Source of the DNA: a virus
Strand: one strand, 5' to 3'
IMG/VR virus record: IMGVR_UViG_3300025326_000949
Span: 1 to 37,079 of that record
DNA: 37,079 nucleotides
A model generated the notes under the pieces. The model worked only from the letters and a program-made list of their open reading frames with translations. It ran no database searches and had not been told where the DNA came from. Both the position numbers and the translations under genes were made by a program. Positions 8,421 to 35,425 of this stretch are shown here, piece after piece; positions within the stretch are counted from its first letter, which is position 1; every line of letters starts with the position of its first letter.

Positions 8421-8440
8421 CTCCTTTATGGAGGAGCGCC

Positions 8441-16180: not shown

Positions 16181-16182
16181 AG

Positions 16183-16212
16183 CAAACAAAAAGCCACCCC
16201 AATGGGAGCGGC
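16183..16212 (-). terminator. intrinsic terminator between sugar cassette and terL
   Basis: On the minus strand GCCGCTCC pairs with GGGGTGGC (two wobble pairs, loop CATT) followed by TTTTTG. It lies in the 100-base gap after the cytidylyltransferase. A second small hairpin, TGCCGC/GCGGCA, lies at 16228-16244. The gap separates cassette transcription from terL or makes it conditional. Confidence 0.65.
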
Positions 16213-16280
16213 CTTACGCTCTCTATGTGCCGCCGAATGCGGCAGGCTTGCACTACTGTACTACTGTCCTTATTTTCGCG

Positions 16281-18433: not shown

Positions 18434-19578
18434 CCGAGCCAGGTATCCTTTTCCCTGCACTCCGCGCACGGCCTGCGGAACTGGCCGGAATTATGCTCAG
18501 AGCGTAATGCGTTCATATAGTCACCGTTCCACCACTCACTGAACGTCATCGCCTCAATGTTGCAGCCATCCGTCGTGAGTTCGGTCAGGGCATCGTGGCA
18601 ACAGGCGTTGAACCTTCCGTCCGCAACCATGCTGCCCACAGCGTAGATGTGCTGGCACGGCATCGCGCCGAGCCGGGCTGCCTTGATTGCATCTTCTTCC
18701 TCACTTACAATAGCATTGCCTAACCACGGCTTCATGCTATCCAGATTCTTGATGAATACGTCATCCACACCTGGCGTACTGATCCAATAGCGAATGAAAT
18801 CACCTATCTGCGCGGCCGTGTTCTCTTTGTTGATGCACTGCAATCGAACAAACGGTTTCACATCTCCACGCATCGCCCTGCGCTCAAGAAATTCATGCAC
18901 ACGAGATAGAGTGCGCTCGAATGCGCCAATATCATTCAGCTTAGTACTGGGTCGGTTGGCGTCATAGACCTCAGCAGTCGTGCCATCGATGCTGATTATG
19001 AGATCATCGAGATGAGAATTCAGTATATCCGCGAGATTCGGAACATCGCCGTTCGTGCTGAGGTTGACAGCGCGGAATCCCGCTGCCTTCGCACCATCAA
19101 TCATTGCTCGAATCGTCAGGCGTTGGCCACCGACAGTATCGCGCCACAGTAGCGGTTCTCCGAGCATATAGAGACTGATACCGTATACCTCGCGCTGGCT
19201 ACATTCCATCATGAGTCGCGCGAAGTGTTCCCACCTCATCATGCCCTTGCGATTCGTGACGAGAATTGTGCAGAACGGACAGCGCCGATTACAGAGTGCT
19301 GTCGGCTCGATGATAAAGTAGCGCGGAAAGGGAATCACCTCGCGCCGAGCATATTCCTCTCGCGCTTGTGTCAGCGTAGGCGCAGACAACGGACGCAGTG
19401 CAGAACGCACCGCGCGCCCAATGGCATCGGCGTCGCCGCCATTGTGCTTCGCCTCAATCCATCCGTGCCGAGAGAAAGACCACCCCTGCTTCTCTCGCAC
19501 GCCGCGCATCGCCACGCCTTCGATGTCCTCGATGCGCGATCCGATAGGATAGGACGAAAAGGGATTAACTAATTCCAT
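18430..19578 (-). CDS. radical SAM/SPASM-domain enzyme
   Basis: A 382-residue protein (start at MELVNPFSSYPIG; 12 upstream codons rejected for lack of a site). The radical SAM cluster motif is CNRRCPFC (Cys 96, 100, 103), preceded by FIIEPTAL. Downstream are LYMLGEP, VNLSTNGD and IISIDGTT, typical barrel strands. The C-terminal part has the SPASM-like Cys set (MPCQHIYAVGSM, FNACCHDA, RPCAECREKD). It would use SAM to start radical chemistry on a sugar or a peptide. It is embedded between a CxxC protein and the ATP-grasp enzyme, so the three may work together. Confidence 0.85.
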   Translation of the reverse strand: MELVNPFSSYPIGSRIEDIEGVAMRGVREKQGWSFSRHGWIEAKHNGGDADAIGRAVRSALRPLSAPTLTQAREEYARREVIPFPRYFIIEPTALCNRRCPFCTILVTNRKGMMRWEHFARLMMECSQREVYGISLYMLGEPLLWRDTVGGQRLTIRAMIDGAKAAGFRAVNLSTNGDVPNLADILNSHLDDLIISIDGTTAEVYDANRPSTKLNDIGAFERTLSRVHEFLERRAMRGDVKPFVRLQCINKENTAAQIGDFIRYWISTPGVDDVFIKNLDSMKPWLGNAIVSEEEDAIKAARLGAMPCQHIYAVGSMVADGRFNACCHDALTELTTDGCNIEAMTFSEWWNGDYMNALRSEHNSGQFRRPCAECREKDTWLG

Positions 19579-19900
19579 TCCTAGCCTCAACCCTAGCCCG
19601 ATCAAATAAAGCATGAGTGAACGCGGGTTGACTGCAAATAATCCTCATGCTCATTAAGTTTTCGTCACACGCACTGCACTTCATAAATTCGAGGTACATT
19701 ACCTCATCTTCCCAGTTTTTCATCAGATCGACTAGGTGTCCCTTGTAGATGCCGCGAATCGGAGTTTGGATCTTGAGGTATATCGAGCATCCTCGGCATA
19801 TTGTTATGCCATCGTGCACAATAATGACTGGATCGTCTACTTCCACGCCGACAAATCTACAGCTGGATTGCGCCATCCTGACATCTATCACGCGCTCCAT
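19565..19900 (-). CDS. CxxC-containing protein of unknown role
   Basis: A 111-residue protein. ATG at 19900 is preferred over the GTG two codons earlier because GAGGTGG lies just upstream. Two Cys pairs (ICRGCSIYLK and MKCSACDEN) could bind zinc or an iron-sulphur cluster. It overlaps both neighbours (SDR and radical SAM) and lies immediately before the radical SAM gene, so it could be a partner of that enzyme. No family recognised. Confidence 0.6.
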   Translation of the reverse strand: MERVIDVRMAQSSCRFVGVEVDDPVIIVHDGITICRGCSIYLKIQTPIRGIYKGHLVDLMKNWEDEVMYLEFMKCSACDENLMSMRIICSQPAFTHALFDRARVEARNGIS

Positions 19901-20556
19901 GTCCACCTCGCATCACTAGCCGCACCATCTACCACGCGCACCACGCGTCCGGTGCTCTGTCCATCCTCGATCAGATCGACAATGACCTGCGCTACCGCCG
20001 AGGCCGGCTGTAGTACAGCATCCGCCTTTGCTCCGCCTGTGGCAATGACCTGCCGTCCCAGATCGGTATCTGTCAATCCAGGAGACACGACATTGAAACG
20101 CACGCCGTTACTGTACTCGTGCGCGTATCCCAGTATCAGCGTCACGAGAGCCGCCTTTGCTACGCTGTACGGCGCAGTCTCCACGCCACCGACGAAGGCA
20201 CGAGTAGAGGCAACAGCAACCACACATCCGCGCGCCTCAGCCAATCGGGGCAAGAAAGCACGCATAATGTTTTGATGCGCGAGGAATACGCGGAACTGCT
20301 TGAGGTAATCCGCGTCACCTATCTTTTCGAGAGGCGCAGAGAACCATTCACCAGCGCATAAAATAAGCGCGTTCAGGGGAAGCGAATGCGGTGCCGCGTT
20401 CCAAGCCGATGCGAAATATTTTGTCGATCCATATACGCTCAAATCAAGCTGGTCTCGGCTTGGTGCGGCCACTTCCCAATCCTTCCCGCGCAGCATGTCC
20501 GCGGTTGCCTTGCCGATGCCGCGTGAACCGCCCGTGATCAGTGCTATCTTATTCAT
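19888..20556 (-). CDS. short-chain dehydrogenase/reductase
   Basis: A 222-residue classical SDR. TGGSRGIG (8-15) is the cofactor loop, ILCAGEWF (65-72) stands for the usual NAG, Ser117 and Y130-SVA-K134 are the catalytic residues, and NVVSPGLTDTD follows. It should oxidise or reduce a hydroxyl or keto group on a sugar intermediate with NAD(P). It overlaps the upstream methyltransferase by ATGA. The position within the cassette suggests a tailoring step. Confidence 0.85.
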   Translation of the reverse strand: MNKIALITGGSRGIGKATADMLRGKDWEVAAPSRDQLDLSVYGSTKYFASAWNAAPHSLPLNALILCAGEWFSAPLEKIGDADYLKQFRVFLAHQNIMRAFLPRLAEARGCVVAVASTRAFVGGVETAPYSVAKAALVTLILGYAHEYSNGVRFNVVSPGLTDTDLGRQVIATGGAKADAVLQPASAVAQVIVDLIEDGQSTGRVVRVVDGAASDARWTWSA

Positions 20557-21416
20557 TCGCGCACCGCCACGACGACCAATTCTCTACCCTCTCCTCGTCG
20601 CGCCAAATCCTGATAGCGCGCCATACGTTCAGGTCGTGTCAATTCCAGGTCGTATTGTGTCACGCTGTCGTATAGCTTTGCACCCAGAGCGGAGTTGTTC
20701 GTGTAGTCCTCGCCATTGAGTAGGAATCGCTCAACTGGATGCAGCGTGCTTCGTTCAACGATACGAAATCCAGCGCGCCCAACCATGTTAGCGAATGATT
20801 CAGGCGTGAAGTAGCTGAGATGGGTCTTGTCAACGAACCAGAACGGATTTTCGACCCCATGATTCGCTCTAAGCTGAATGGGTGAGAAGTCGTTGGGCAC
20901 AACTGCCAACAACACGCCGCCGAGCGATAGACGATCATGCGCCCAGCGCAAGAAGTGCAATGGATCGGGTAAGTGCTCAATCAGCCAAAGCGCAGATAGG
21001 CAGGCATAGCGAATCCATGTTCTGAGATTTTTCCACGTGCCATAAAACGTATCGCTCGGTGCATATTTCACGGCCTCTCTACTGGGCTCAATGCCATGTG
21101 CTCTCCATTTCCGCGTCTGCGCTTCCCGCATAAAATGTCCGTATCCAGCTCCTACATCCAGCAGAGTCCTGTTCGGAGTGTGCCTCTCAATCAATTCAAA
21201 CCAATCGCCATAGATCGCCGCCCACCACTCGCGCTGCTCATCGATTCGCGCCAGCGCGCCCGGCTTCTCCTTAGTCCAGAAATCCGAGGCATAGAACCGA
21301 TTCAGATCGTCGGTATTCGGCATCGTCTCAAGATGCGCATAACCGCACGTCTTGCAATCAATCACCCGCAGGTCGTCGCGCTCTCCGATGGGGGAGCCAA
21401 CGTGCTCATTCTGCAT
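20553..21416 (-). CDS. SAM-dependent methyltransferase
   Basis: A 287-residue protein. Two N-terminal Cys (CKTCGYAHL, 21-29) may bind zinc. The SAM motif is LLDVGAGYGHF (85-95) with acidic GIEPS at the end of the next strand, and IEHLPDPLHFLRWAHDRLSLGG is the usual motif after strand 4. FWFVDKTHLSYFTPESF is common in sugar methyltransferases of this class. It would methylate an O, N or C position of the sugar. AGGA lies 8 bases before the ATG and the gene is coupled to the SDR. Confidence 0.8.
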   Translation of the reverse strand: MQNEHVGSPIGERDDLRVIDCKTCGYAHLETMPNTDDLNRFYASDFWTKEKPGALARIDEQREWWAAIYGDWFELIERHTPNRTLLDVGAGYGHFMREAQTRKWRAHGIEPSREAVKYAPSDTFYGTWKNLRTWIRYACLSALWLIEHLPDPLHFLRWAHDRLSLGGVLLAVVPNDFSPIQLRANHGVENPFWFVDKTHLSYFTPESFANMVGRAGFRIVERSTLHPVERFLLNGEDYTNNSALGAKLYDSVTQYDLELTRPERMARYQDLARRGEGRELVVVAVRE

Positions 21417-21669
21417 CTGGCAATCCTAGCCACGCACACGCCGCGCCGCTTGTGGGTGACGGAAACAACACCTTGCCGCTTGTCTGTTCGTCCTTCCAGT
21501 AGTAATCCAGACCATACCACTCCTGGATGACGATGCGACTGATGACCAACTTGCCGTATTGATAGCACCAGACATGATAGCGGATGGAGTTGGAAGGCGA
21601 TTTGTATCCACAGCCAACCAGAAGCACGGCCGCCAATAGAACAACCATCAAGCGTTTAAGGTTTCTCAC
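21406..21669 (-). CDS. small lipoprotein within sugar cassette
   Basis: An 87-residue protein. I choose the GTG at 21669 (reads MRNLKRLMVVLLAAVLL) because it gives a basic n-region, a hydrophobic core and the lipobox LVGC; the ATG seven codons later is the alternative. The mature part is ~65 residues with Tyr/Trp-rich strands. It would be anchored in the host envelope. It overlaps the PseG-like gene and the methyltransferase gene, so it belongs to the operon. A lipoprotein inside a sugar-nucleotide pathway is odd and hints at a role at the cell surface. Confidence 0.6.
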   Translation of the reverse strand: MRNLKRLMVVLLAAVLLVGCGYKSPSNSIRYHVWCYQYGKLVISRIVIQEWYGLDYYWKDEQTSGKVLFPSPTSGAACAWLGLPDAE

Positions 21670-22714
21670 GTTTCCCACTCTTGCGATGCGCCCTAACCGT
21701 CGCCTCAGCATGTATGATGCGCTCAGCGTGCGGCTCCATGACCATCACAGAATCGCCCGCAATCAAGCGCGCAATGCAATTCGCCACACGCGCCGCACCC
21801 TTGCCGTCAACCATCGTCTTGCCCGATACCGACATAGCAAGCCAGCGCGCCTCGTGACCTATAACATCTAGTGCAGCCTGCCTCAACTCGCCATCATCGA
21901 GCTTGTCCCATGTTCCGAGATTGATCGCGACATCACCCGCCGCAAGCGCCTTCGTCGCATCCTCGTGATCGGTGCTCCAGGCTGTCAACAGCGCCGGAAC
22001 GCCCGCCGCCGCCGCCTCGAAAGCTGACATCCCTAGCGCGCCGATGAATAACGCCGCGCCATTCATATAGGCTGCAAGAGAATCAGGAGCATGGACGAAT
22101 AGAATGCTATCATTCGCTTCGCTGATTTCTATCGCCTCAGACGCCTGACCATTTATGACAACCAGCTTACGACCAATTCCATCCATCAAGCTCAGAACAC
22201 GATGCGTCATACTGTGCGGATCACCACCCCCCATACTGATCAGGATATGACCGTTGAAAGCGGGCCGACATTCAGCGTATTCTGGTCTGATAATCATATA
22301 TTCAACGCCTGTCACGTCACCATCGGTCGGCAGAATCGTCTGACAAATGAACAGGTCGGCCAGATCGCGGATAGCTTGCCTATCTTGCATGATATACCCT
22401 GAGCCACCAATCACGATGACCTTACTAAAGTTGCGCGCCGCGCCCAGCATAGCACGAGTCGGCCCGTTCTCTACGTCGATAATACAGGCCGAACACCAGC
22501 GCGCGCGGTTCGCCCAACTCATATCATCAGGGGCAAAGTCGATCACCAAATAGGGAGATTTGCGGATTCGTTCATAGCCCGGTGTCTCATGCTGTGTGGC
22601 AAAATTGACTCCGAATCCCGATGCCTTCAGCGCGTCGGCAAGAGTTAAGCAACGCACAACATGGCCCATGCCGTGAGCGCGGTCGCCTACAGCGTAAATG
22701 CAGATGTCAGCCAT
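21656..22714 (-). CDS. PseG/SpsG-like UDP-sugar hydrolase
   Basis: A 352-residue GT-B-like hydrolase. The N terminus has the diagnostic GMGHVVRCLTLADAL (15-29; His18 and Arg21), then VIVIGGSGY, and at the domain joint ISMGGGDPHSMT (159-170). The C-terminal half has the donor region GALGMSAFEAAAAGVPALL. PseG removes UDP from the 2,4-diacetamido sugar before condensation with pyruvate in pseudaminate and legionaminate pathways. The C-terminal ~40 residues are basic and lie outside the usual domain. It is the best single sign, with NeuB and the cytidylyltransferase, that the cassette makes a nonulosonic acid. Confidence 0.8.
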   Translation of the reverse strand: MADICIYAVGDRAHGMGHVVRCLTLADALKASGFGVNFATQHETPGYERIRKSPYLVIDFAPDDMSWANRARWCSACIIDVENGPTRAMLGAARNFSKVIVIGGSGYIMQDRQAIRDLADLFICQTILPTDGDVTGVEYMIIRPEYAECRPAFNGHILISMGGGDPHSMTHRVLSLMDGIGRKLVVINGQASEAIEISEANDSILFVHAPDSLAAYMNGAALFIGALGMSAFEAAAAGVPALLTAWSTDHEDATKALAAGDVAINLGTWDKLDDGELRQAALDVIGHEARWLAMSVSGKTMVDGKGAARVANCIARLIAGDSVMVMEPHAERIIHAEATVRAHRKSGKREKP

Positions 22715-22719
22715 CGCTT

Positions 22720-23007
22720 TTATTTCTCCGTCTTCGGCCAGAATGCCGCGCCACCTCGAATCACCTCGTGCACCGTACCGAGATCGGCATCCACCCGCAA
22801 TTCATCGCCGGGCAGTAGGTCGATCGGTGCCTCGACTGTGGACATCGCGCCAACTGATGCACCCGTGACGTGGGCATACTCAAATTTCTGCCTGCGCTCA
22901 TTGCCCAAGTGCGTTGTGATAACCTCGAATCCGGCTGGCCGCTGCTCGATGACGTTGCTGCCCTTGGCGACCTTCGCTTTCAGCGTGAGAGTTGTGACTA
23001 GCATCAT
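22720..23007 (-). CDS. small beta-rich protein of unknown role
   Basis: A 95-residue protein (or 94 from the second Met, which is better spaced from AGGAGG). It is mostly beta strands (VTTLTLKAKVAKGSNVIEQ, GFEVITTHLG, PIDLLPGDELRV). I considered that it might be a detached SAF/antifreeze-like domain of the NeuB-like enzyme, which lacks one, but the sequence does not show the SAF pattern. It is coupled to the dehydrogenase upstream and lies 5 bases before the PseG-like gene. Confidence 0.55.
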   Translation of the reverse strand: MMLVTTLTLKAKVAKGSNVIEQRPAGFEVITTHLGNERRQKFEYAHVTGASVGAMSTVEAPIDLLPGDELRVDADLGTVHEVIRGGAAFWPKTEK

Positions 23008-23792
23008 ATCCTCCTGACTTCGCTCATGACTTCAAGAGCATTGCATCCATCCGACAGAGTAGCCGTTCGGTAATCCTTCTGTGCTCCAGCGACCCACTCC
23101 AGCCAAGCGCGCAAGGCATCGATATACATCTCATTGCATGGATCGAGTGAAATCATTTCGCCACCCGTTGAAACAACCGACCTCCGTGGACCCATATCAA
23201 TCCTATACAGATGACCACTTGATCCAAACGCATGTTGAATTCTGCCGTATACACTCAATCCGTTTGTCACCATATCCACACTGGTCGCCGACCCTAGCAA
23301 CCATAGCGCCGTGTCAATCGGGTGTGCCGCGATGTAACTCAGGCAGTCTGGACCGTAGCGGTTAAGTAAATCATCGTTCGCAGCAAACATGACAGACTGG
23401 CTATCCCGGATAATGGCCCCAGCCTCACGGTAGACAGGATGAAAGCGATACTGGTAACCGACTGCGCAATGCAGGCTGTCACCGAATTGAGCCCACTGCG
23501 GCAACTCGCCCAGCAAGCCGATCGGTTTCTCACAGTAGAATGGGATGCCAGCAGCACTCAACTCGGTCGCCTGCTCCAGATGCGCCGAGATTGGACTGGC
23601 GATAATAGCAGCACGTGCATCTGGATTGCTATTGACGGCCTCACTCCAGTCGGAAAACATCGCATCGCCATCAGACAAATCGAACAGCGCCACAGGATCG
23701 GCGCCGACGACATGCACCCGGGGCAAGATGAAGCGCAGATTGACGAGGTGGCGCTTGCCGATTGAGCCAAGGCCGAGAACAAGCACCTTCAT
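23004..23792 (-). CDS. Gfo/Idh/MocA-type dehydrogenase
   Basis: A 262-residue protein, shorter than the usual 330-350. The Rossmann loop GLGSIGKRH (7-15) and catalytic EKPIG (88-92) are clear. The AAHPIDTALWLLG segment carries the conserved His/Asp of the second catalytic region. It would oxidise or reduce a sugar C-OH using NAD(P). Overlaps the aminotransferase by ATGA, so a keto product handed to that aminotransferase is a reasonable guess. Confidence 0.8.
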   Translation of the reverse strand: MKVLVLGLGSIGKRHLVNLRFILPRVHVVGADPVALFDLSDGDAMFSDWSEAVNSNPDARAAIIASPISAHLEQATELSAAGIPFYCEKPIGLLGELPQWAQFGDSLHCAVGYQYRFHPVYREAGAIIRDSQSVMFAANDDLLNRYGPDCLSYIAAHPIDTALWLLGSATSVDMVTNGLSVYGRIQHAFGSSGHLYRIDMGPRRSVVSTGGEMISLDPCNEMYIDALRAWLEWVAGAQKDYRTATLSDGCNALEVMSEVRRI

Positions 23793-24961
23793 CGGATCGC
23801 CTCGACTGCGCGTAGCGTTTGCTCAACATCGGCCAACGTGTGCGCCATAGTCGGGAATTGCGGGCGATGAATCATCACCCCTTGCTCAATCATTTTTCTG
23901 CACCAAGCAAGCCACTGCTCATCTGTGTCGAATACCACGGTGCTGCGCTCCGGTTGGCCGACGCACTTCACACCGCGTTCGTTAAGACCGTCTTTCAGTG
24001 CGCGACCTATTGTCTGCAAGTGGCCGGCCACGCCGTATACCTCAGCGTGATGATTTAACAGCCACCGCACTGTAGCCGCCGCTACACTGCACGGGCCAGG
24101 CGACCCGCCAAACGTTGTCGAATAAAACACGTCCTCGCTCAAGCGATTGACCAGATCGGCTCTCCCGATGACGGCTGACACGCAACCCGTTGCACTCATG
24201 GCCTTGCCGAGGACGATCATATCCGCCCGAACACCATATCGTTCGCAAGAGCCAGCCAGCGCGAGACGGAAGCCACATACCACGTCATCGATGATGAGCG
24301 GGATGCCCTGCCGATCGGCTTCCGTGCGGCACGCTTGCAGAAATGAGACAATAGCGTTTTCGTCATCCCAGGCTGGGATCTCGACCATAATGCAGGCCGC
24401 ACCATTGGCCGACGAACTCATGGAAACCACATCGCCAAACTTGAATAGACGCTGTATCGGAAGTGTCATCGGAGAGGCCGATCCGAGCACAGCGGGCAGA
24501 TGAACAAACTCAAGCCCAGCACCGTGATAACCCTCCGTCGCAATCTCGTCCCACCCTGTCGCCGCCCGCGCAACACGCACTGCCGCCGCGCAGGCCTCAC
24601 CCCCAGACTGGAAAAAGCGACATGCCATATCGGATGAAGTAAGGTAGCCATCAAAGACTGCACCCAGCGCATTAGCCAAGTCGTATTCAGCGGCATGACC
24701 ATACGAGCCGTGCGTCTCGCGCAGATGTAAAGCATCAAACGGCAGTTGCAACAGATCAGGCGACGCCCCAAACAGCAAGCCAGCCTGCCCACCGATCCAT
24801 GACAGCAATTCGCACCGCTCGTGATGTCCGTCACCATAATCGAAGCGAACTACCTCGCGGACGCCACGCGCTGCAAGCGTCACGCCCCGCACTGCACCCA
24901 TCGGTAACGGCCTACGTCCCCGGCTTTGAGTCGATGCACCGCCTGCCAGAAGCATGCTCAT
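23789..24961 (-). CDS. class III PLP aminotransferase (GSAM-like)
   Basis: A 390-residue protein. SGGEACAAAVRVAR (119-132), Tyr-His of EGYHGAG, IIDDVVCGFRLA (223-234) and the PLP lysine in VLGKAMSATG (Lys253) identify a glutamate-1-semialdehyde aminomutase-like fold. Usual pseudaminate pathways use a DegT-type aminotransferase (PseC), but GSAM-like proteins are also found in surface-sugar clusters. It would aminate or isomerise a sugar keto group. Start overlaps the NeuB-like gene by ATGA. Confidence 0.85.
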   Translation of the reverse strand: MSMLLAGGASTQSRGRRPLPMGAVRGVTLAARGVREVVRFDYGDGHHERCELLSWIGGQAGLLFGASPDLLQLPFDALHLRETHGSYGHAAEYDLANALGAVFDGYLTSSDMACRFFQSGGEACAAAVRVARAATGWDEIATEGYHGAGLEFVHLPAVLGSASPMTLPIQRLFKFGDVVSMSSSANGAACIMVEIPAWDDENAIVSFLQACRTEADRQGIPLIIDDVVCGFRLALAGSCERYGVRADMIVLGKAMSATGCVSAVIGRADLVNRLSEDVFYSTTFGGSPGPCSVAAATVRWLLNHHAEVYGVAGHLQTIGRALKDGLNERGVKCVGQPERSTVVFDTDEQWLAWCRKMIEQGVMIHRPQFPTMAHTLADVEQTLRAVEAIR

Positions 24962-25680
24962 CTGCGGATGTCCCTGACCATGCGCCCGAACGCGTCAGGC
25001 AACAGAGAATGACCCGCCTCGATATCCTCTGGCATCAGCGCGAAATGCTTTTCAATCACAGACGCACCAAGCCGCGCGGCAACGACACAGTCCAATGCGC
25101 TTCGAGTGTGCGACGACCAACCCCAGCGATAACCGCTTCGTTTACAGTGCATCGAGAAGCGAATCAGCCAATAGAGCGCCAGGGCTATGGGCGTTGGGTA
25201 GACCTGGACAGCAAATAGCGTCGTTATTGTGTTGCTATGGCCTGCTCTAAACGCCAGATCGGATACCGAGCGCATAACTTGCTTATTCTGACTAAATGCT
25301 TTGAAAATCAAATCCGAGTTGTATTGCTCACGCGCTGCCAGCTTGATAAAGTCGCAATGCTCAGAAGCAAGTCTGACCGCCTCTTCGTCGAACACTGAGG
25401 CGCCAGCTAACAAATAGAGATCATGTGCCGTCTTCACAAACGATGACAGCTTGTCCATCGGAAACTCTAAACGGCGCTTTCTCTTCTGTTCCTCGATGGG
25501 AAAATGCTCCACACGCCACAGTTGAATCTTCACGGCATCTGCGCCGACCTGATGCGCTGATTGGCACCACGGCTCCAGATTCCAGCCTCGATAGGCCATT
25601 GCTTTAGAGTCCCACGCCTCGCGTGCCGGCGAAGACCCGAACTCGGCTACGATCAGCGGCAAATGATGATCCATCTTCAC
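24958..25680 (-). CDS. NeuB/PseI/SpsE-like nonulosonate synthase, no SAF domain
   Basis: A 240-residue protein, about 100 shorter than NeuB. The barrel motifs are present: VAEFGSSPA near the N terminus, VKIQLWR (50-56; usual VKFQ), SVFDEEAV (95-102), FIKLAARE (111-118), VYPTP (160-164), GWSSHT (187-192) and EKHFAL (210-215). It would condense phosphoenolpyruvate with a hexosamine to give a nine-carbon sugar acid. The C-terminal antifreeze-like SAF domain is missing and the gene stops just past the barrel. That domain normally reaches into the partner's active site. Function is likely but the substrate is unknown. Confidence 0.82.
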   Translation of the reverse strand: MKMDHHLPLIVAEFGSSPAREAWDSKAMAYRGWNLEPWCQSAHQVGADAVKIQLWRVEHFPIEEQKRKRRLEFPMDKLSSFVKTAHDLYLLAGASVFDEEAVRLASEHCDFIKLAAREQYNSDLIFKAFSQNKQVMRSVSDLAFRAGHSNTITTLFAVQVYPTPIALALYWLIRFSMHCKRSGYRWGWSSHTRSALDCVVAARLGASVIEKHFALMPEDIEAGHSLLPDAFGRMVRDIRR

Positions 25681-26681
25681 AGCAGCTCCCGAAGATCAGA
25701 CGGCATCATTCTGCTTGCTCTTTCGCTCGTATACTCAAATCCATCCCACAGCGGCTGCCCCTCATGCGGCACGTATTCCCAAACATCACAGATGGCCCCA
25801 GGTGGCTCGATGAGGTAGCACCAGTCGGCTTCCACAGTTCGGAATATCTCGCTTGGCGCTATCAGCATCTCGTGTAGCTTGTCGCCATCCAGCGCACCTA
25901 TCACTGAATACGGATAAGGCTCGCCAGCTTCATTCGCGTGTGCCCGGATGAATGCGCTCACCAGGTCGCTGAGCTTCCACGCACGCAATTTCGGGATAAA
26001 TATCTCCCCGCCGCGCATCTCTATGATTGAGCGCCACACAAACGCGCACCAAGCTTCCATCGGCAGATGAAAGCGCGTTACGGTCGGATCGGAGATCGTG
26101 ATAGGCTTCTTGGCGCTTATCTGCTCAAGCCACACCTCGATCACCGATCCGCGACTGCCCCAGACATTTCCACCCCGCACAACAGCGAACCGTACTTTCC
26201 GTCTCGCGCCGCGTGCATTCGCCTGAATCACGAGCGACTCAGCCAATGCTTTCGATTTTCCGTAAGCATTGAATGGCTGCACGGCCTTATCGGACGATAT
26301 GAACATCGTTCGTGGTGTGCCGGCCAACAGAACTGCATCAACGACATTGGCTGTGCCATCGACGTTCGTCTTTGTGAATTCGTCAGCCTGCCTCTCGCCC
26401 GTGCTCACTCGCTTCAACGCAGCAGCATGAACGATAATCGTTGCACCGTCTATGGCACTGATCAGCTTGCGAAAATCGCGCACGTCGCACAAAATAAACG
26501 TCAAGCGCGAGTCGGGAAACTCGCGCTGCATCTGTTCCTGCTTGGCTTCGTCGCGCGATACGATTCTGATCTTGGCATCGGTATTCGACAGAAGATATCG
26601 CGTGAAAGACTGCCCAAAGCTGCCTGTGCCACCTGTTATCACGACGCACCCATCGGTACTGTCTGGCTTATTGGCTGTCAT
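25677..26681 (-). CDS. PseB/CapD-like UDP-sugar 4,6-dehydratase
   Basis: A 334-residue extended SDR. TGGTGSFG (16-23) binds NAD(P), HAAALKRV (85-92) is the signature of the PseB/CapD group, and the catalytic set is SSDK (129-132) and Y140-GKS-K144. TRFHLPMEAWCAFV and GGEIFIPKLRAWKLSDLV match the C-terminal half. PseB makes the 4-keto-6-deoxy sugar that starts the pseudaminate pathway. The final ~70 residues are less typical. The start overlaps the TerS-like stop by ATGA, so it is translated from the packaging-gene mRNA. Confidence 0.85.
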   Translation of the reverse strand: MTANKPDSTDGCVVITGGTGSFGQSFTRYLLSNTDAKIRIVSRDEAKQEQMQREFPDSRLTFILCDVRDFRKLISAIDGATIIVHAAALKRVSTGERQADEFTKTNVDGTANVVDAVLLAGTPRTMFISSDKAVQPFNAYGKSKALAESLVIQANARGARRKVRFAVVRGGNVWGSRGSVIEVWLEQISAKKPITISDPTVTRFHLPMEAWCAFVWRSIIEMRGGEIFIPKLRAWKLSDLVSAFIRAHANEAGEPYPYSVIGALDGDKLHEMLIAPSEIFRTVEADWCYLIEPPGAICDVWEYVPHEGQPLWDGFEYTSERASRMMPSDLRELL

Positions 26682-27250
26682 TTGTCGATGTCCGTCTCCA
26701 CCTGTGACCCGAACAGTCCGTCCGCCAACATCTGAACATTAAGACGTTCCTGTATCTCGGCGGCAGTCATATAGCCGCCTGCGGCGATGTCTGACAGGAT
26801 GCGCAATGCGCCATCGCGTCCGAACTGAGATTCGAGCGACGGCAATGTGAGGACCCCTTGCCGGATGGCGCTCGCGTAATCGTTTTGCCATACCGTCACA
26901 TCAATGGGCTGAATCACCTTACCCCAACCGCGCTCAAGCAAAATGTCAGCAGCCGGCGCTTTGCCATCCATCGCGTCATTGTACAGCCGCCTCAGCACTG
27001 CATCGAGGCGGGTCCAGTTCGTTGCGGCATCGACGACTTCCGATCCGATGTCGCGCACGTGCTGAGCAAGAGTGATGGCTAATGGTTTTCGGCCAGCAGG
27101 GTTGCCGGACTGACCCGGCTTGAATTGATACTTCTTCGGCGGATTCCTGTAGCCGACTTCGCTGTTTACTCCCTGCTTTACAGGGGTGCGTTTATATTCT
27201 GGTTTTTGCGGCTTTTCCGTTTCCGCGCGCTTTGCGTTTCGTTTCGCCAT
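26678..27250 (-). CDS. DUF5681-type protein, terminase small subunit candidate
   Basis: A 190-residue protein starting MAKRNAKRAETEKPQKP; the frame is open further but lies within the methyltransferase. YQFKPGQSGNPAGRKP (about 42-57) is the signature of the DUF5681 domain, which in many phages sits beside terL. Helical parts follow. The gene overlaps the methyltransferase end by 59 bases and the PseB-like gene by 4. I infer it is the DNA-recognition subunit of terminase, separated from terL by the sugar cassette. Confidence 0.7.
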   Translation of the reverse strand: MAKRNAKRAETEKPQKPEYKRTPVKQGVNSEVGYRNPPKKYQFKPGQSGNPAGRKPLAITLAQHVRDIGSEVVDAATNWTRLDAVLRRLYNDAMDGKAPAADILLERGWGKVIQPIDVTVWQNDYASAIRQGVLTLPSLESQFGRDGALRILSDIAAGGYMTAAEIQERLNVQMLADGLFGSQVETDIDK

Positions 27251-27783
27251 ACTCGATTCGCTCGATCTCGATGCCAGGGAAGGCGTCGGCCATGCGCTGG
27301 AGGGCAACAGCGCAATAGGCGGAATCCAATTCACCACCCACACAGATTCTATTTGTACGTGCCGCTGCAAGCATTACTGTTCCAGAGCCGAGATAAGGAT
27401 CAATAATAACGTCCCGCTCATCGGTAAAATCGCAAATGATACTTTCGAGCAGCCCCACAGGTTTTTGTGTTGGATGTATCCTATCAGCCATTTCCACATC
27501 TCTATCGCCAGCACGTATCATTCCAGACCAGCGCCATTCGTAACGCCTAATATGATTACCAACATTAGACCAGATCAATTCGCATGCTGAGAAAGTAGAT
27601 TGGTCAGATACGCCTTTCTCCCAGACTAGCCACGCAGGAGAATCGGGGAGACGGGAAGCATAATGATTTGCGCCAAACAGAATGCATACTTCGGCAAGTG
27701 CCAAGAGCCACGTCGGATCAAACGGTCTATCATCATTGATGATGGGGTGGTATAGACGGGGTTTAATAACACCTTCCCCCCCC
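27192..27783 (-). CDS. ParB-methyltransferase, C-terminal part (+1 frame)
   Basis: Continuation of the DNA methyltransferase in another frame after the G8 tract. It encodes GVIKPRLYHPIINDDRPFDP, WLVWEKG, IHPTQKPVGLLESII, and the SAM motif DPYLGSGTVMLAAA with GGELD. The motif order (DPPYG first, then the SAM motif) is that of beta-class N4-cytosine/N6-adenine enzymes. There is no sensible separate start. The open frame begins 5' of the tract but the upstream peptide there is not methyltransferase-like. It ends with a basic tail overlapping the DUF5681 gene. Confidence 0.8.
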
Positions 27784-28527
27784 GACTCGTCCCACGATTT
27801 TTGGCTTATGTCCACATAATTTCCGGACTCTCCCAAAGGGCTTAGCACCACCGATGGTGCCAAGCCCGCGAACGATATTGATGCCATAGGGAGGATCGGT
27901 AATAACTGCATCTAGTCTGCAGTCGCCACGAATCAAGTCAAGGCCCCGCTCACTTTCACCGCATAATAGCCGATGCTCCCCGATGCACCATAGGTCGCCC
28001 GTCTTGACCTTCCACTTTCGGTTAAGCTCCTCTGCTCGGTCGATCTGCGGTTCGGCATCGGCTTGACCATCTCCGTTGCGCGCCAACGCCAGCAGACGAT
28101 CCATTGCCCGACGCTCTCCCGCCGCCAGCATTGCTAGGGTTTCGCCTTCGGTTTCGTGGATGCGCGCGACCAGTGCCGCTAACTGCGCCTCATCCGCCGT
28201 ACCGCGCCGCGCCAGTTCATTGTCAGCCGCGAGATATGCCAGCACCTTTGTTTTAGACCACGTCACCGGAACGACATCGGCCCGAAGTGTCTTGAATCCT
28301 TCAAGCTGAGCCGCTTCATACAGGCCGTTACCGGCGACAACAACGTAGCCGCGCCCGTTCTTCTGTACGACAATTGAGCGCACCTGACTGAATTGGCGTA
28401 GGCTTTCGCGCAGGTCGGCTATCTGCGCGTCATCGTGTTGGTTGTAGTTATCGGCATGTGGCTTGCATTCAGAGACCTTGACGGTTGAATTGATGACAAC
28501 ACCGTTTCGCTTCGTCACAGCGACCAT
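27763..28527 (-). CDS. ParB-domain DNA methyltransferase, N-terminal part
   Basis: A 254-residue frame. Residues 10-130 are a ParB-like domain (VSECKPHADNYNQHDDAQIADL, then VVVAGNGLYEAAQLEGFKTL). From ~170 the methyltransferase starts, with DPPYG at 211-215. The reading stops 13 codons after KPKIVG at the G8 tract; removing one G continues directly into the C-terminal part. AGGAG touches the ATG, so the GTG at codon 4 may be the true start. ParB-methyltransferase fusions are common in phages and protect DNA from restriction or mark it. Whether this copy is on, off or frameshifted is unclear. Confidence 0.82.
   Translation of the reverse strand: MVAVTKRNGVVINSTVKVSECKPHADNYNQHDDAQIADLRESLRQFSQVRSIVVQKNGRGYVVVAGNGLYEAAQLEGFKTLRADVVPVTWSKTKVLAYLAADNELARRGTADEAQLAALVARIHETEGETLAMLAAGERRAMDRLLALARNGDGQADAEPQIDRAEELNRKWKVKTGDLWCIGEHRLLCGESERGLDLIRGDCRLDAVITDPPYGINIVRGLGTIGGAKPFGRVRKLCGHKPKIVGRVGGGRCY
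27776..27783 (-). repeat. G8 homopolymer in methyltransferase
   Basis: Eight G in the coding strand. The upstream frame reads GTC GGG GGG GGA AGG and ends 3 codons later, while a seven-G version reads on through GAA GGT GTT ATT into the second half. Runs of this length are classical contingency loci in bacterial methyltransferases, and are also a common sequencing-error site. Confidence 0.85.
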
Positions 28528-30307: not shown

Positions 30308-30540
30308 TCACCCCCGTCGCGCAGTCGCTGATATTCCTCACGCGTGATACGGCGATACGTGATCTCGCCGATAGTCAGCGGCAAGCACACCAAATGCTGC
30401 CGGAACTCATCGAGCGTCAACACCGTCGGACGCCGATCACGCTCGAACCGTTCATCCGAGTGCGGCGTGTGCGCATGATACATCGCCTCGGCGGTGCCGA
30501 CAATCGTCTGCTGCGGTGAAGTGGCTGCAATGAGCATCAT
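30304..30540 (-). CDS. small protein of unknown role
   Basis: A 78-residue protein starting MMLIAATSPQQTIVG. GGAGG lies 5 bases upstream. The C-terminal half (PTVLTLDEFRQHLVCLPLTI, then ITREEYQRLRDGGE) looks like a small alpha/beta fold. Overlaps both neighbours by 4 bases. Confidence 0.6.
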   Translation of the reverse strand: MMLIAATSPQQTIVGTAEAMYHAHTPHSDERFERDRRPTVLTLDEFRQHLVCLPLTIGEITYRRITREEYQRLRDGGE

Positions 30541-30857
30541 GCTATCCTCCGTGAACGGAAAGTCAAATCGTAATAGCCTAGCAAGATCGGCGAATCCGAC
30601 TTGTCAATCATCACCCATCCACGTGCCTCGAACGCGCGGTAGATGTCCAACCAATGATCCTTTTCCGCCTGCACAACTTGATACTCCGGCGTGCCACCGT
30701 GCATTAGGATCGGCGGCGACGGTGGCGTGGTGACTATACCCCGGCCTGTCACGGACCGCAACAGAATCAGCACTAACGTCAGCGAGATGGTCATCAGGCT
30801 GCACGCCATGAAGCCGGCTATCGCAAAACCGATGTTTACTGCGTCAACGGATACCAT
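30537..30857 (-). CDS. small membrane protein
   Basis: A 106-residue protein starting MVSVDAVNIGFAIAGF. One strong membrane helix around residues 7-32, then a Pro-rich linker and a soluble domain ending FEARGWVMIDKSDSPILLG. The frame is open for 66 more codons upstream, but that stretch runs through a CRISPR-like repeat and gives the well-known artefact peptide APRASGDEP, so I reject it. The ribosome site at this ATG is weak. Confidence 0.6.
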   Translation of the reverse strand: MVSVDAVNIGFAIAGFMACSLMTISLTLVLILLRSVTGRGIVTTPPSPPILMHGGTPEYQVVQAEKDHWLDIYRAFEARGWVMIDKSDSPILLGYYDLTFRSRRIA

Positions 30858-31013
30858 CCAACCACATCCATGATTGCGCTGTATGAAGACCGCATTTCGC
30901 AAATATACGGCCCTTGTTTGGCCCCGACTTACGCACTCGGAAAATGCCTTTTGGAGCATTGCACACTGGACAATCACCTGCCCTTCCGCGCCAATCCTGC
31001 AATGTACGGAGAA

Positions 31014-31042
31014 CGGTTCATCCCCACTCGCGCGGGGAGCAT
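31014..31042 (-). CRISPR. solitary type I-E-like CRISPR repeat unit
   Basis: On the minus strand this 29-mer begins ATGCTCCCCGCGCGAG and ends TGGGGATGAACCG. The layout is that of type I-E repeats: CCCCGC stem, GCGA tetraloop, GTGGGG stem with one G-U pair, and an 8-base 3' end ATGAACCG equivalent to the crRNA 5' handle. In the opposite orientation the stem has an A-C mismatch, so the minus strand is the functional one. No second repeat occurs within the next 200 bases on either side and no cas genes are present. A promoter ends ~9 bases upstream. Single repeats of this kind in phages can act as RNA anti-CRISPRs. Confidence 0.8.
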
Positions 31043-31058
31043 CGATCTCCCACACAAC

Positions 31059-31088
31059 ATTATGTCATTCACAACTTCACTTGTTCAA
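31059..31088 (-). promoter_or_regulatory. promoter reading into the CRISPR-like repeat
   Basis: On the minus strand TTGAAC (31088-31083), 18 bases, then CATAAT (31064-31059). The -10 lies within the left 13-bp inverted repeat. Expected start is ~31051, and the repeat unit begins at 31042. Control by whatever binds the iterons is therefore likely (inference). Confidence 0.5.
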
Positions 31089-31111
31089 CTTGACAATAAG
31101 TTGTGTTGTGA

Positions 31112-31141
31112 AAGTTGTACCCCTAAAGGGGGGTACAACTT
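31112..31141. promoter_or_regulatory. 12-bp perfect inverted repeat inside iterons
   Basis: AAGTTGTACCCC (31112-31123) and GGGGTACAACTT (31130-31141) around TAAAGG. The outer arms are iteron-like. It could be a terminator after the helicase (no T-run, so weak), a cruciform at an origin, or a dimer-binding site. Confidence 0.6.
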
Positions 31142-31201
31142 CACAACTTCACAACTTGAGAAATTTCACAACTTTTCACAACTTTTCACAACTTCACAAC
31201 T

Positions 31202-32191
31202 TCAAGACATAATGTTGTTAAGTTGGTCGATAACCGACTTCACGGCGGAGTCATTGATCAGGTCGTACTCTGCCAACGAGCCGCGTCCATTGGCATGATC
31301 GACGCGTTCGATATAGTTCATGCGTACTAGATCATACACAGCCTTGCGTGCACCGGCTGCACTGCACCGGTCGGCATTCGCCGCAATGTCCTTGAGCATC
31401 GACCGGCCATTGTGGGTGAGGTAATCCAACACATAGTGCTGTGCTGGACTGAGCCGACGCGCTTGGACTGCTGCACTCGCCTCAAGCCAAACGTGATCCG
31501 GCTCGAAGTGCACTGTTGCACTGAACGAGAACGGGTCGATGTCGCGTGCCTTCTCGACGTTGAAGTAGATGTTGGGTGAGTCCGGCTTGCTCTCGGTCAT
31601 CAGCATCAGGTCAACCGCACCCTTGAGTGCCGTCGAGCCGCGATAGATGCCGTTCTTGTTGGCGTGATGGATGACGACGATGCTACACTTTGCGCTATCG
31701 GCGATCCAACGCAGTACGGCAAACACAGGTTGCACGTCCTTGACACTATTCTCGTCTGCACCGAGCATCACATCAGCCAACGCATCGATGATAATGAACT
31801 GCGCTTTCGTTTGTGTGATCAAACTGTAGACACGAGCGCCGTCCTTCATATCTTTCAACGAGAATCGTTCCAGGCAGGTGTATTGCAACGGGATATCACT
31901 GGCTGCCTGATGGCCGCGCATTACGTCGCCGATGCGCCGGCTCAGTCGGCGCTCACCACTTTCCTCATCGATGATCAGCGTCGATGCACGTGTGGACCGC
32001 ATACCCAACCACGGCTCGCCGGATGCCACACAGACCGCCGCATCCACTAGTGCATAGGTCTTCTTGCTACCACCTTCACCGACGATCAATGAAACGCCGC
32101 CAATCGAGAATAGCGGCTCAATGAGCCATTCGATAGGCGGCTGTGGCTTGAGTGCCTCGGCTGCAATATGGATAACGGGTGTGCGTGCCAT
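31202..32191 (-). CDS. RepA/RecA-type hexameric helicase (AAA_25-like)
   Basis: A 329-residue protein starting MARTPVIHIAAEAL (the ATG at 32191; a TTG one codon earlier is less likely). Walker A is GEGGSKKT (38-45) and Walker B FIIIDALAD, followed by SIVVIHHANK and RGSTALKGAVD, as in RSF1010 RepA-like helicases. The last ~80 residues (SPAQHYVLDYLTHNG onward) form a winged helix. It probably unwinds DNA during replication. Own promoter, 140-base structured leader, and iterons at the 3' end support a replication role. Confidence 0.8.
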   Translation of the reverse strand: MARTPVIHIAAEALKPQPPIEWLIEPLFSIGGVSLIVGEGGSKKTYALVDAAVCVASGEPWLGMRSTRASTLIIDEESGERRLSRRIGDVMRGHQAASDIPLQYTCLERFSLKDMKDGARVYSLITQTKAQFIIIDALADVMLGADENSVKDVQPVFAVLRWIADSAKCSIVVIHHANKNGIYRGSTALKGAVDLMLMTESKPDSPNIYFNVEKARDIDPFSFSATVHFEPDHVWLEASAAVQARRLSPAQHYVLDYLTHNGRSMLKDIAANADRCSAAGARKAVYDLVRMNYIERVDHANGRGSLAEYDLINDSAVKSVIDQLNNIMS

Positions 32192-32205
32192 CAAAAAGCG
32201 CCTGT

Positions 32206-32340: not shown

Positions 32341-32369
32341 ATCATACACCTTTTGACTGTGTCTGTCAA
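32341..32369 (-). promoter_or_regulatory. sigma70 promoter for helicase
   Basis: On the minus strand TTGACA (32369-32364), 17 bases, TATGAT (32346-32341). Perfect -35 and ideal spacing make it the best promoter in the window. It starts transcription near 32334 and leaves a ~140-base untranslated leader. The -35 overlaps the stop of the zinc-finger gene. Confidence 0.8.
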
Positions 32370-32554
32370 CGTGTGACATATCGCTTCGTCTGCTGTCCGG
32401 CCAGGTGCAGCGCGATGCGATCCATTGTCCATCGTCGCACTTCGGTATGACACCGGCCGGCATGCACATAGAGATTGACATGCCGAGCACCATCGAGCGC
32501 CACTGTGCGATACGCTGCATCGAGAGACTTGCCGCACACAGGACAGGCTGCCAT
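32366..32554 (-). CDS. small zinc-finger protein
   Basis: A 62-residue protein beginning MAACPVCGKSLDAAYRTV. CPVC plus a later HVNLYVHAGRCH could form a Cys/His zinc site. The start shares a base with the VWA stop (TGATG); the open frame before it is not used. Position between VWA protein and helicase suggests an early regulator or DNA-binding accessory. Confidence 0.65.
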   Translation of the reverse strand: MAACPVCGKSLDAAYRTVALDGARHVNLYVHAGRCHTEVRRWTMDRIALHLAGQQTKRYVTR

Positions 32555-33120
32555 CAGCGATCTCCGTTGAGCATGAGGCGCACCGGCTCGGCGATCTCGG
32601 CCACGTGATCCGATGTGACGAACTTGCCGCCGGTTGCTTTGCACAGTTGCTGCAAGAAATCGCGACCGCGGCTCTCGCGTTCGGGCCCGATGTAGATCGC
32701 GTCGATGCGCGTCTTGAACGTGCGAGCAACAGCCAGTGCTTTCTGCTGGTCATCGGGATCACCATCACTCACAACAATGATCTTGATCCCGCAGTCATCG
32801 GCGACTTTCACGAACTGCAACGCTTGCGCCAAATCAGTGCTGCCATTCAATTCGGGATAGTCGCCGCCCGGCACAAACTGCACCGTGTTGCTGAACACGA
32901 TGACACCGACGCGACCGGGCAGCGACGATTGAAGTTGGCGCAACTCATCGCGTGCCGCCTGATGGCGCGTGCGACTGTCGCTTGCATCTCGACCGATCAT
33001 GCTGCCGGAACTATCGATGATCACGAGTGCATCGCAGCCTAGAAACGACTCGGCTAAGCTGATGTTGCCGCGCTGTGCTGCATCAAGCAGGCTGCCGGGT
33101 ACGATAGTCAATGAATTCAT
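32554..33120 (-). CDS. VWA-domain protein
   Basis: A 188-residue protein starting MNSLTIVPGSLLDAAQ at an ATGA overlap with the J-domain gene (GTG four codons earlier rejected). The MIDAS motif is DSSGS (36-40), with STDLAQAL and VVSDGDPDD supplying the other metal ligands, followed by a Rossmann-like end IDAIYIGPE. VWA domains bind partner proteins through a metal ion. Next to a J-domain protein it may form a phage chaperone- or replication-control pair (inference). Confidence 0.82.
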   Translation of the reverse strand: MNSLTIVPGSLLDAAQRGNISLAESFLGCDALVIIDSSGSMIGRDASDSRTRHQAARDELRQLQSSLPGRVGVIVFSNTVQFVPGGDYPELNGSTDLAQALQFVKVADDCGIKIIVVSDGDPDDQQKALAVARTFKTRIDAIYIGPERESRGRDFLQQLCKATGGKFVTSDHVAEIAEPVRLMLNGDR

Positions 33121-33956
33121 GGCTCCACCCACTTTCGCGTAAATGTGTCATCGCCGACTGGCCACGAGGTGACCAACACCCGACCGGCGCCGTCGATAAT
33201 ATCCTGCCACAGTAGAATGCGACTCACTGAAAACTTGAGTTCTTGCGTGCCTTCGCACGTGATCATGCCGCAGCGCAATGGCAATTGCCAACGTGATACC
33301 TCACTCCATAGATCGCGCCGACGCAGTGTCTGCTTTGCCTGCACCGACGATTCCAGCGTCAGTCCCGCGTTGTACTTGCGCCGCATCAGCGGATCGCTGA
33401 GAATGCGATTCGCCTCGGCGATCTGCTTGAATATGTCACTGGCATTCGGCTCACTGCATACGTCAGGATGCCATTGACGCGCGAGGCGGCGATAAGCTGA
33501 TCGCACTTCATCCGCACTCGCCTGCTGCGTGATCATCAGCGTGCCGTACAACGTGCTGGCTGCTTGCGACTCGTTATGTTCCGGCTCTTTGAACCACGCG
33601 CGCAGAACCTGATTCGGGATGACTACCGACCAAGACTCGCTGCACCAGCCAAACGAGGAGAACGATCCGTCTGCGCGCTCCTTCGGTACGCTGAGGTATT
33701 CGATGCGCAACACACGCGCCTCACGCTGTATCTGCATCGATTGTGCCGTGTCGATCCGCGCATCGGGGTAGAACTGTCTCACGATCTGCTCGACCACCGT
33801 CTGCTGTGATGCCGACACACGCCACACCTTTGCGTCAGCATCCCAACGCCGATGCTCCGGCGCGATGGACTTCAGCGCCGCCACCAGACCGGCATTATAT
33901 GGCGTGTGCAATTCGAGGATGTTGCCAACGCGCTTAACTGTTGCGCTGCTATTCAT
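33117..33956 (-). CDS. J-domain (DnaJ-like) protein with N-terminal domain
   Basis: A 279-residue protein. Residues 1-65 (VGNILELHTPYNAGLVAALK, then WDADAKVWRV) look like the small beta-alpha domain found beside some phage helicases (HARP-like). The J domain spans ~135-197: TLYGTLMITQQASADEVRSA and the essential HPD at 163-165. A C-terminal ~80 residues is beta-rich. It would recruit host DnaK, for example to load or remodel replication proteins as lambda P and DnaJ do. Coupled to the VWA gene. Confidence 0.82.
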   Translation of the reverse strand: MNSSATVKRVGNILELHTPYNAGLVAALKSIAPEHRRWDADAKVWRVSASQQTVVEQIVRQFYPDARIDTAQSMQIQREARVLRIEYLSVPKERADGSFSSFGWCSESWSVVIPNQVLRAWFKEPEHNESQAASTLYGTLMITQQASADEVRSAYRRLARQWHPDVCSEPNASDIFKQIAEANRILSDPLMRRKYNAGLTLESSVQAKQTLRRRDLWSEVSRWQLPLRCGMITCEGTQELKFSVSRILLWQDIIDGAGRVLVTSWPVGDDTFTRKWVEP

Positions 33957-34713
33957 AGTGCTCCACCAGTTTCTGCCATGCGTCAGCGGGGTTCATCTTC
34001 ATCAGATCGTGAATGTTGCAGGCCAGCGTGTTGCAGATGTCCGGTGCGTTGATCTGCCAGTTCGACGCCGCGCGTTGCAATAGTTGTGCGATGCTGGCCG
34101 GCGGCATCAACCGTTTGAGATCATTGAGCTCGGTCTGCTTGCGCTCGCGCTCAGCGAACGCTTGTAGCTCGGCATCATCATCGTAGTAGAGATCGAGCGC
34201 GATGCCAAGCTCGTGCGCCGCCACCTTGAGACCATCGGACTTCGCGCCTTTCAACGCATCGCCGAACTCAACCGTCTCCTCCCAGTTCTGAGAGCCGGGG
34301 CCCGGCTTCACGATGGTATCGATGACTTCCATCGTCTTCGGATTGCGGATCGATACGCTGAGTTCGCCATAGATCGCGACATTACGCATTGTCTTGTGTT
34401 TGCCGCCGAACTCTTCATCGGTCACTGTGAGTTGGTAGATATTGCCGCTGAATACTGGCAACAGTCGAAATGACCAGCCGAACCCGAATGCCTTGTTCAG
34501 CACATCCGTCACGTACCCGTGCTGCACATACGAGAATGTGCGCCCGCCACGTCCCGGTCGGCTCTTGATTGCGTGCTTTGGCGTTCGACCGGTGAGGATC
34601 GCGATCTGCGCCTCATGGAACACCGGCATCAGAACATCGTGTACAGTCAATGCGCGTTCGGTGGGTGCTTCGCGTCTATTGTCAGGCACTACTATTGCCT
34701 TCGTCTTGCTCAT
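33949..34713 (-). CDS. Rad52-family single-strand annealing protein
   Basis: A 254-residue protein starting MSKTKAIVVPDNRREAP after GAGGAGG. YVQHGYVTDVLNKAFGFGWS (residues ~62-81) is the Rad52/Rad22 core signature, followed by DTIVKPGPGSQNWEETVEFG and DALKGAKSDGLKVAAHELGI, which is the conserved ALKGAxSDAxKRAA-type stretch. It anneals complementary single strands in phage recombination. Neighbour of an ERCC4-type nuclease, a likely functional partner. Confidence 0.85.
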   Translation of the reverse strand: MSKTKAIVVPDNRREAPTERALTVHDVLMPVFHEAQIAILTGRTPKHAIKSRPGRGGRTFSYVQHGYVTDVLNKAFGFGWSFRLLPVFSGNIYQLTVTDEEFGGKHKTMRNVAIYGELSVSIRNPKTMEVIDTIVKPGPGSQNWEETVEFGDALKGAKSDGLKVAAHELGIALDLYYDDDAELQAFAERERKQTELNDLKRLMPPASIAQLLQRAASNWQINAPDICNTLACNIHDLMKMNPADAWQKLVEHYE

Positions 34714-35425
34714 CGTGATCCTCCTCGAATTGTGTGAGTGTCCAAGATTCATTGATCCCGAACTGGAGAAAGTCGCAAGCTGCCTGTACCATCTTGATGC
34801 CCCATTGATCAGGCAGTGCATCGGCTCGGAGATAGCGCATTATGGGCAGCCACTCCAATGCGCTGCACAATCGCTTGTCATCTGTCCAATCGATCAGCGA
34901 TTGCGCGCGCTTCGCGCCAACGCCGGGAATGCCCGCGAGGAAATCCACACGTGGATCGAGCGTCTCGAACGTGATCGAACGCTGAGCACGTGCAGGAACG
35001 CGCTCTTTTGATGCTGTGTGGATCGCCTCGGTCACTGCTCGAACGAACTGTCCCGATGGCACGAACTCCACTGCGCAGCCAGCCCATTGCACTGCTCGGA
35101 TCGCCGCACGCACCGACACACCGCGCCACTGCGTATCGCGTTCATCAGCTACAGCGCAATCATCCTGGTTGTATAGGAGTGAGCCGTTCACCACGATCAG
35201 CGGGAATCGCACTGATTCGACCATCGCGCGCGCTTGATCGAACAATCGTCCGTCACCGATGCTGCTGAGCAAATCTGATGGTGTCTTGCGCTCGATCGCC
35301 AGCAGCCCGTTCGGCGTCGGCACGTTCACATCACCGGCAGCGAGTTGCGACACGTGCACCGCATACACTGCCGACAACGCATCGACGATCGATTGCGGTT
35401 CGCGTAAGTCAACCAATACGAGCAT
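34682..35425 (-). CDS. ERCC4-family nuclease with helix-hairpin-helix
   Basis: A 247-residue protein starting MLVLVDLREPQS; the frame is open far upstream but only this ATG has a site (GAGAGG). The GDV...ERKTPSD motif (31-33 and 45-51) is the XPF/MUS81 active site. LAGIPGVGAKRAQSLI near residue 165 is a helix-hairpin-helix that binds branched DNA. It probably cuts flaps or branched intermediates made by the Rad52-like protein. The C terminus is acidic and overlaps the next gene by 32 bases. Confidence 0.88.
   Translation of the reverse strand: MLVLVDLREPQSIVDALSAVYAVHVSQLAAGDVNVPTPNGLLAIERKTPSDLLSSIGDGRLFDQARAMVESVRFPLIVVNGSLLYNQDDCAVADERDTQWRGVSVRAAIRAVQWAGCAVEFVPSGQFVRAVTEAIHTASKERVPARAQRSITFETLDPRVDFLAGIPGVGAKRAQSLIDWTDDKRLCSALEWLPIMRYLRADALPDQWGIKMVQAACDFLQFGINESWTLTQFEEDHDEQDEGNSSA

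Follow-up and report, generated by a model that had tools for sequence, protein, structure and literature searches.

The locus described here raises the question of whether a solitary type I-E CRISPR repeat in a phage genome works as an RNA anti-CRISPR (Racr), as an initial annotation had proposed. Virus-borne solitary repeat units are known that function as RNA anti-CRISPRs. Two of them, RacrIE1 and RacrIE2, were shown to inhibit a type I-E system in a study that lists 2,103 viral solitary repeat units (Camara-Wilpert et al. 2023, PMC10651486). We analysed an environmental phage, the IMG/VR viral record IMGVR_UViG_3300025326_000949, positions 1 to 37,079; this whole stretch of 37,079 nucleotides is called the window. 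Our preferred answer, to which we give a probability of about 0.6, is that the repeat unit acts as a Racr by capturing the Cas6e of the host.

The repeat unit and its fold

The 29-base unit ATGCTCCCCGCGCGAGTGGGGATGAACCG is located on the minus strand of the window (31042..31014). When up to three mismatches are allowed, the whole window contains no other type I-E-like unit, and none was found in 100 dinucleotide shuffles of the window. For one particular 29-mer, the expected number of sequences in the window with at most two mismatches is about 1e-9; it rises to about 2e-5 when any of the 17,823 SRUFinder library repeats may be matched. The presence of the unit is far beyond chance. The sequence thresholds of SRUFinder for a solitary repeat unit are an identity and a coverage of at least 90% to a known repeat and a bit score of at least 41.1. 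With blastn-short scoring, the unit is 27/28 identical (96%) with 28 of 29 bases covered and reaches 48.1 bits. SRUFinder also demands that no other repeat, complete or partial, lie within 100 bp of a solitary unit. Both the scores of the flanks and the scan of the window showed a single unit; the best flank scores were 7 and 8, which is the level of shuffled flanks. One unit in the window does not make a CRISPR array or mini-array, defined as at least two repeats separated by spacers. The unit was also tried as a remnant of an array, and this origin was rejected, since no similarity to an array leader was found beside it. Finally, SRUFinder requires a position outside confidently predicted genes. 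The unit lies between the stop of an ATPase gene (31202) and the probable start of a GRF zinc-finger frame (31002), and the weak 172-aa frame that reads across it has a low codon score.

Pfam and/or PADLOC scans of window proteins, which covered a part of all frames, revealed no cas gene. Within this scope, the initial claim of a unit with neither a second repeat nor cas genes was confirmed. A weak "Cas6" match in the window (E=2e-4) was judged spurious, the protein being an ERCC4-domain nuclease. The neighbourhood of the unit showed no recognisable member of a known defence or acr-like family. The Rfam search gave no family at the gathering score, and the sub-threshold matches were dismissed as low-complexity matches to iterons.

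Folding of the isolated unit gave, as the minimum-energy structure, the stem C6-C11/G16-G21 with a GCGA loop and the handle AUGAACCG, in agreement with the structure read from the sequence initially. The stem-loop (31037..31022, minus strand) contains the pairs from C6-G21 to C11-G16, including a G10-U17 wobble, and is followed by the 8-nt handle (31021..31014, minus strand). Type I-E processing leaves an 8-nt 5' handle, and the predicted Cas6e cut would fall after G21, between 31022 and 31021 of the minus strand (PMC5965380). The pairing probability of the stem was 0.73-1.0 in most of the transcript contexts folded, and it fell to 0.14-0.49 in two contexts (longer leader, ending at the repeat 3' end).

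A matching type I-E system in Hydrogenophaga

We searched 84,980 genomes, one per species, for the 28-base core of the unit with C or T at position 17. It turned out that a single genome matched, the Hydrogenophaga MAG JAURYH01, where the core occurs 73 times on two contigs. Its repeat is GTGCTCCCCGCGCGAGCGGGGATGAACCG, present in about 74 array copies. The phage unit is identical to this repeat at 27 of 29 bases, the two exceptions being position 1 (G to A) and position 17 (C to T, which turns a G-C pair into G-U). Both changes leave the type I-E stem-loop intact, so the hairpin that a Racr needs for Cas6 binding is retained; the folding energy is -13.2 kcal/mol for the phage unit against -15.1 for the Hydrogenophaga repeat. 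JAURYH01 has a complete type I-E operon (cas3, cse1, cse2, cas7, cas5, cas6e, cas1, cas2), with the cas6e frame at 16076-16855 of locus L104. The contig with the operon looks chromosomal, because it also carries frames that read by eye as DNA polymerase I and homoserine kinase. Thus, the search for a type I-E repeat matching the 29-mer, suggested in the initial annotation, led to a complete system with such a repeat. The host of a Racr is expected to carry a system of the same subtype, and the host of this phage may be a bacterium of that kind.

Among 121 genomes of the family (up to three mismatches) and 369 of the class (up to one mismatch), no other carried a comparable repeat. In plasmids, type I-E-like units were found in 33 records, mostly of Streptomyces, the best being about 93% identical over 28 bases. 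The viral contigs contained no repeat of the Hydrogenophaga type with C17, and the T17 variant pattern occurred in one locus only (L002), where it belongs to a genuine array. The G-U pair had been taken as a sign of a decoy. Since a genuine array unit carries the same C17U change, it is not a mark of this kind.

Several observations were counted against the Racr reading. Spacers extracted from the Hydrogenophaga arrays gave only chance-level matches to the window and to the relative phages. A close match to the portal protein, or a related prophage, was not found in 369 genomes of the Hydrogenophaga class (E 1e-80). The G+C content is 55.7% in the phage and 62.1% in the Hydrogenophaga genome. 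The lack of an acr-like neighbour, given above, and that of a conserved copy, considered below, were counted in the same way, as was the predicted leader of about 10 nt, which is too short for the mechanism of RacrIF1.

Genomic surroundings of the unit

Upstream of the unit, a consensus scan revealed the promoter-like pattern TTGAAC-18-CATAAT with an extended -10 (31088..31059, minus strand). From this pattern we infer a transcript start at about 31052, and the repeat begins about 10 nt later, close to the distance of about 9 bases given initially. For a Racr, a promoter is expected at most 250 bp upstream, and this site, as a pattern, lies within that distance. The surrounding region is A+T-rich and contains four promoter-like sites, with 0.4 expected in the consensus scan. 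The same region carries eight copies of the iteron GTTGTGAA (31068..31200), as determined by pattern count and tandem-repeat search. This sequence is expected 0.84 times in the whole window, and a ninth copy is located at 36524. The repeat search also revealed a central palindrome AAGTTGTACCCC/GGGGTACAACTT (31112..31141) and inverted-repeat arms flanking the iteron block (31041-31066 and 31206-31231). Both arms share GACATAATGTTGT, which contains the -10-like box. An iteron therefore lies within the spacer of the promoter-like site, whose -10 box falls within an arm. Next to these elements lies the gene of an AAA_25 (RepA/DnaB-like) ATPase, a probable replication protein (32194..31202, minus strand; Pfam PF13481, E=2.5e-31; PHROG primase/helicase families). 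Together with this gene, the iterons, the palindrome and the inverted arms (31043-31231) look like a replication origin or an operator. The unit had been described as standing behind its own promoter. The pattern is indeed present, but it probably also serves the downstream operon, and it overlaps an iteron and an inverted-repeat arm.

A further idea is that the repeat serves the phage as a site for insertion into CRISPR arrays of its host. PMC10651486 cites, as an alternative, that viruses integrate into arrays by way of repeats. However, we noticed no integrase in the window, and the unit, which lies beside the putative origin, has a length of only 29 nt. We consider a recombination site hardly credible.

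Downstream of the unit, the minus strand contains a probable 52-aa GRF zinc-finger frame (31002..30844) with a TTG start and no clear Shine-Dalgarno sequence. Its matches to PF06839 (E=7.5e-4) and PF23549 (E=8e-4) are both below the Pfam cut-offs; it also resembles NEIL3 GRF structures, and its codon score settles the matter neither way. The frame starts within 12 nt of the repeat, inside 30982-31013, and overlaps the start of the gene of a predicted 106-aa membrane protein (30857..30537, minus strand), which was delimited from the open reading frames and from a blastn comparison of the relative phage L098 with the window. The 32 bases at 30982-31013 had been read as an unmatched spacer, fitting a decoy. 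This argument was dropped, as the stretch overlaps the probable GRF frame and is not evidently a spacer. Since most of it probably encodes the zinc-finger protein, the repeat appears to lie in the 5' leader of a small operon.

The same 32 bases bear on a guide-type RNA, that is, for a crRNA-like molecule made of the unit and the bases after it, which would use host Cascade to repress a gene of the host or of a rival phage, as a mini-array or a CreR-like RNA. After the Cas6e cut, at the position known from PMC5965380, the downstream RNA would begin with the handle AUGAACCG. However, comparison of the 32 nt with the relative phages and with the Hydrogenophaga cas locus gave only 12-base chance matches, a second repeat that could provide the 3' end is lacking, and the stretch reads mostly as the zinc-finger frame. 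Such a guide is very unlikely, because the second repeat is absent and no target was found in these sequences.

The operon suggests another role, in cis. Binding or cleavage by Cas6e in the 5' leader could tune the expression of the zinc finger and the membrane protein, and the phage would thereby sense a CRISPR-bearing host. A leader switch of this type may be considered, because the repeat precedes the probable GRF frame and the conserved membrane-protein gene with no terminator-like site in between, and because the G1A change creates an ATG behind GGGAG. This ATG (repeat bases 1-3) opens an alternative 22-aa frame MLPARVGMNRSPYIAGLARKGR that runs through the repeat (31042..30975, minus strand). 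Nevertheless, G1A may be drift, since the first base of the repeat is not needed for the stem, and the GRF match and codon scores are as equivocal as stated. A helix between the flanks of the repeat that covers GGGAG was tried as a special feature and rejected: it was equalled in 8% of shuffles and at 23% of background sites. On this evidence, a purely cis-acting leader element is unlikely. A combined element, in which a Racr in the operon leader overlaps the ATG and the ribosome site, so that, in CRISPR-bearing hosts only, Cas6e would be captured and would also switch the expression of the zinc finger and the membrane protein, is a little more doubtful still. We also observed that the 22-aa frame ends with AGG-TGA, where a +1 shift would fuse it to the zinc-finger frame (30975-31042, minus strand).

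We found one near relative of the phage, with the same sequence in three samples (L098/L101, L099 and L100). It is 90% identical to the window over 32361-35347. In place of the window block 32360-30858, which contains the ATPase, the iterons, the repeat and the zinc finger, the relative carries two genes, one of them for a VapE-domain primase (L098 2985-5547). The homology starts again precisely at the membrane-protein ATG. The repeat unit is absent from this relative. The replacement of the whole block indicates that the unit is part of an exchanged replication cassette. Between genes of the relative, at L098 4770-4870 and 5450-5540, there are G+C-rich repeated tracts of the GGCAAGGCGCGGC type. 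In the viral contigs, no further relatives were found through the ATPase or the zinc-finger peptide; the terminase led to 80 loci, and the unit was present in 0 of the 50 records tested. Annotated phages gave neither a DNA match to 29.0-32.5 kb nor a comparable repeat, only an 18-base chance match. As a conserved copy was found in no relative, selection on the unit is not evidenced.

This distribution is what would be seen if the repeat were an inert passenger, gained by recombination or off-target acquisition and without function: there is one copy in one phage, the sole near relative has a wholly different cassette in its place, and conservation of the unit cannot be shown. On the other hand, 27 of the 29 repeat bases are intact, and there is no trace of a leader, a spacer or a second repeat. 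In addition, the unit lies exactly between the ATPase gene and the probable GRF gene, beside a promoter-like site, which is the typical placement of published solitary units. We consider an inert passenger rather unlikely, although it is the rival that deserves most weight.

Other regions of the window gave several observations. The gene of a ParB-domain DNA methyltransferase is split into overlapping frames (28527..27763 and 27911..27192, minus strand), by a frameshift or an assembly error. A long block of sugar genes occupies 16281-26681 (minus strand), with a NeuB-family synthase at 24958-25680 and the other genes assigned by eye; in a 37-kb phage record, it suggests a nonulosonic-acid or surface-sugar pathway. 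An HNH-like homing-endonuclease gene lies on the opposite strand inside the structural genes (8363-9055, plus strand; PADLOC HEase, E=1.2e-4).

Proposed action and comparison with known RNA anti-CRISPRs

We return to the Racr reading. Besides the near-identity to the Hydrogenophaga repeat, the intact fold and the lack of a second repeat, its support comes from the probable place of the unit between genes, 10 nt past a promoter-like site, in a cassette exchanged between related phages. It is the best explanation, with a matching system in existence and RacrIE1 and RacrIE2 as precedents (PMC10651486). The initial proposal of a candidate Racr was thus upheld in part: its arguments from the G-U pair and the spacer were lost, and the one from an own promoter has less force. 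A minus-strand transcript would start near 31052, reach the hairpin after about 10 nt and continue into the small operon. The Cas6e of a host with a matching type I-E system would bind the hairpin and cut after G21. Cas6e stays bound to its cleavage product (PMC5965380), and here it would remain on a short 5' product of about 31 nt, made of the 10-nt leader and the 21 nt that end at the hairpin. The captured Cas6e would be withdrawn from pre-crRNA, and less functional Cascade would be formed. Because the predicted leader is only about 10 nt long, the RNA would be mainly a sponge for Cas6e, with no long Cas7 filament; at most one or two Cas7 subunits, at 6 nt each, could bind a product of about 31 nt. 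If the short leader is true, the question is whether the capture of Cas6e alone, with no long Cas7 filament, suffices to block type I-E immunity. The Hydrogenophaga JAURYH01 system is a source of Cas6e that could be tested against the unit.

Among known systems, viral CRISPR mini-arrays (PMC11656645) likewise place a host-type repeat on a virus. In a mini-array, however, repeats flank one or two spacers on either side, and no such arrangement is present in this phage. RacrIF1 resembles the unit as a repeat mimic, which is expected to be bound and cut by the Cas6 enzyme of the host. Its activity resides in the 70-76-nt RNA that lies upstream of the Cas6f cut and is coated by 8-9 Cas7f subunits (PMC10651486), whereas the predicted leader of about 10 nt points here to capture of mostly Cas6e. 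Compared with RacrIE1 and RacrIE2, the unit differs in the probable coding frame that begins 12 nt downstream and in the lack of a recognised acr gene nearby. Like them, it is a single type I-E repeat on a viral genome, probably intergenic, with a promoter upstream (here a pattern), a retained hairpin and no cas genes, and the matching subtype is known in bacteria. The phage unit is thus a further, well-matched type I-E candidate among the RNA anti-CRISPRs, whose number is growing; the class is already known, and its mode of action is not new.
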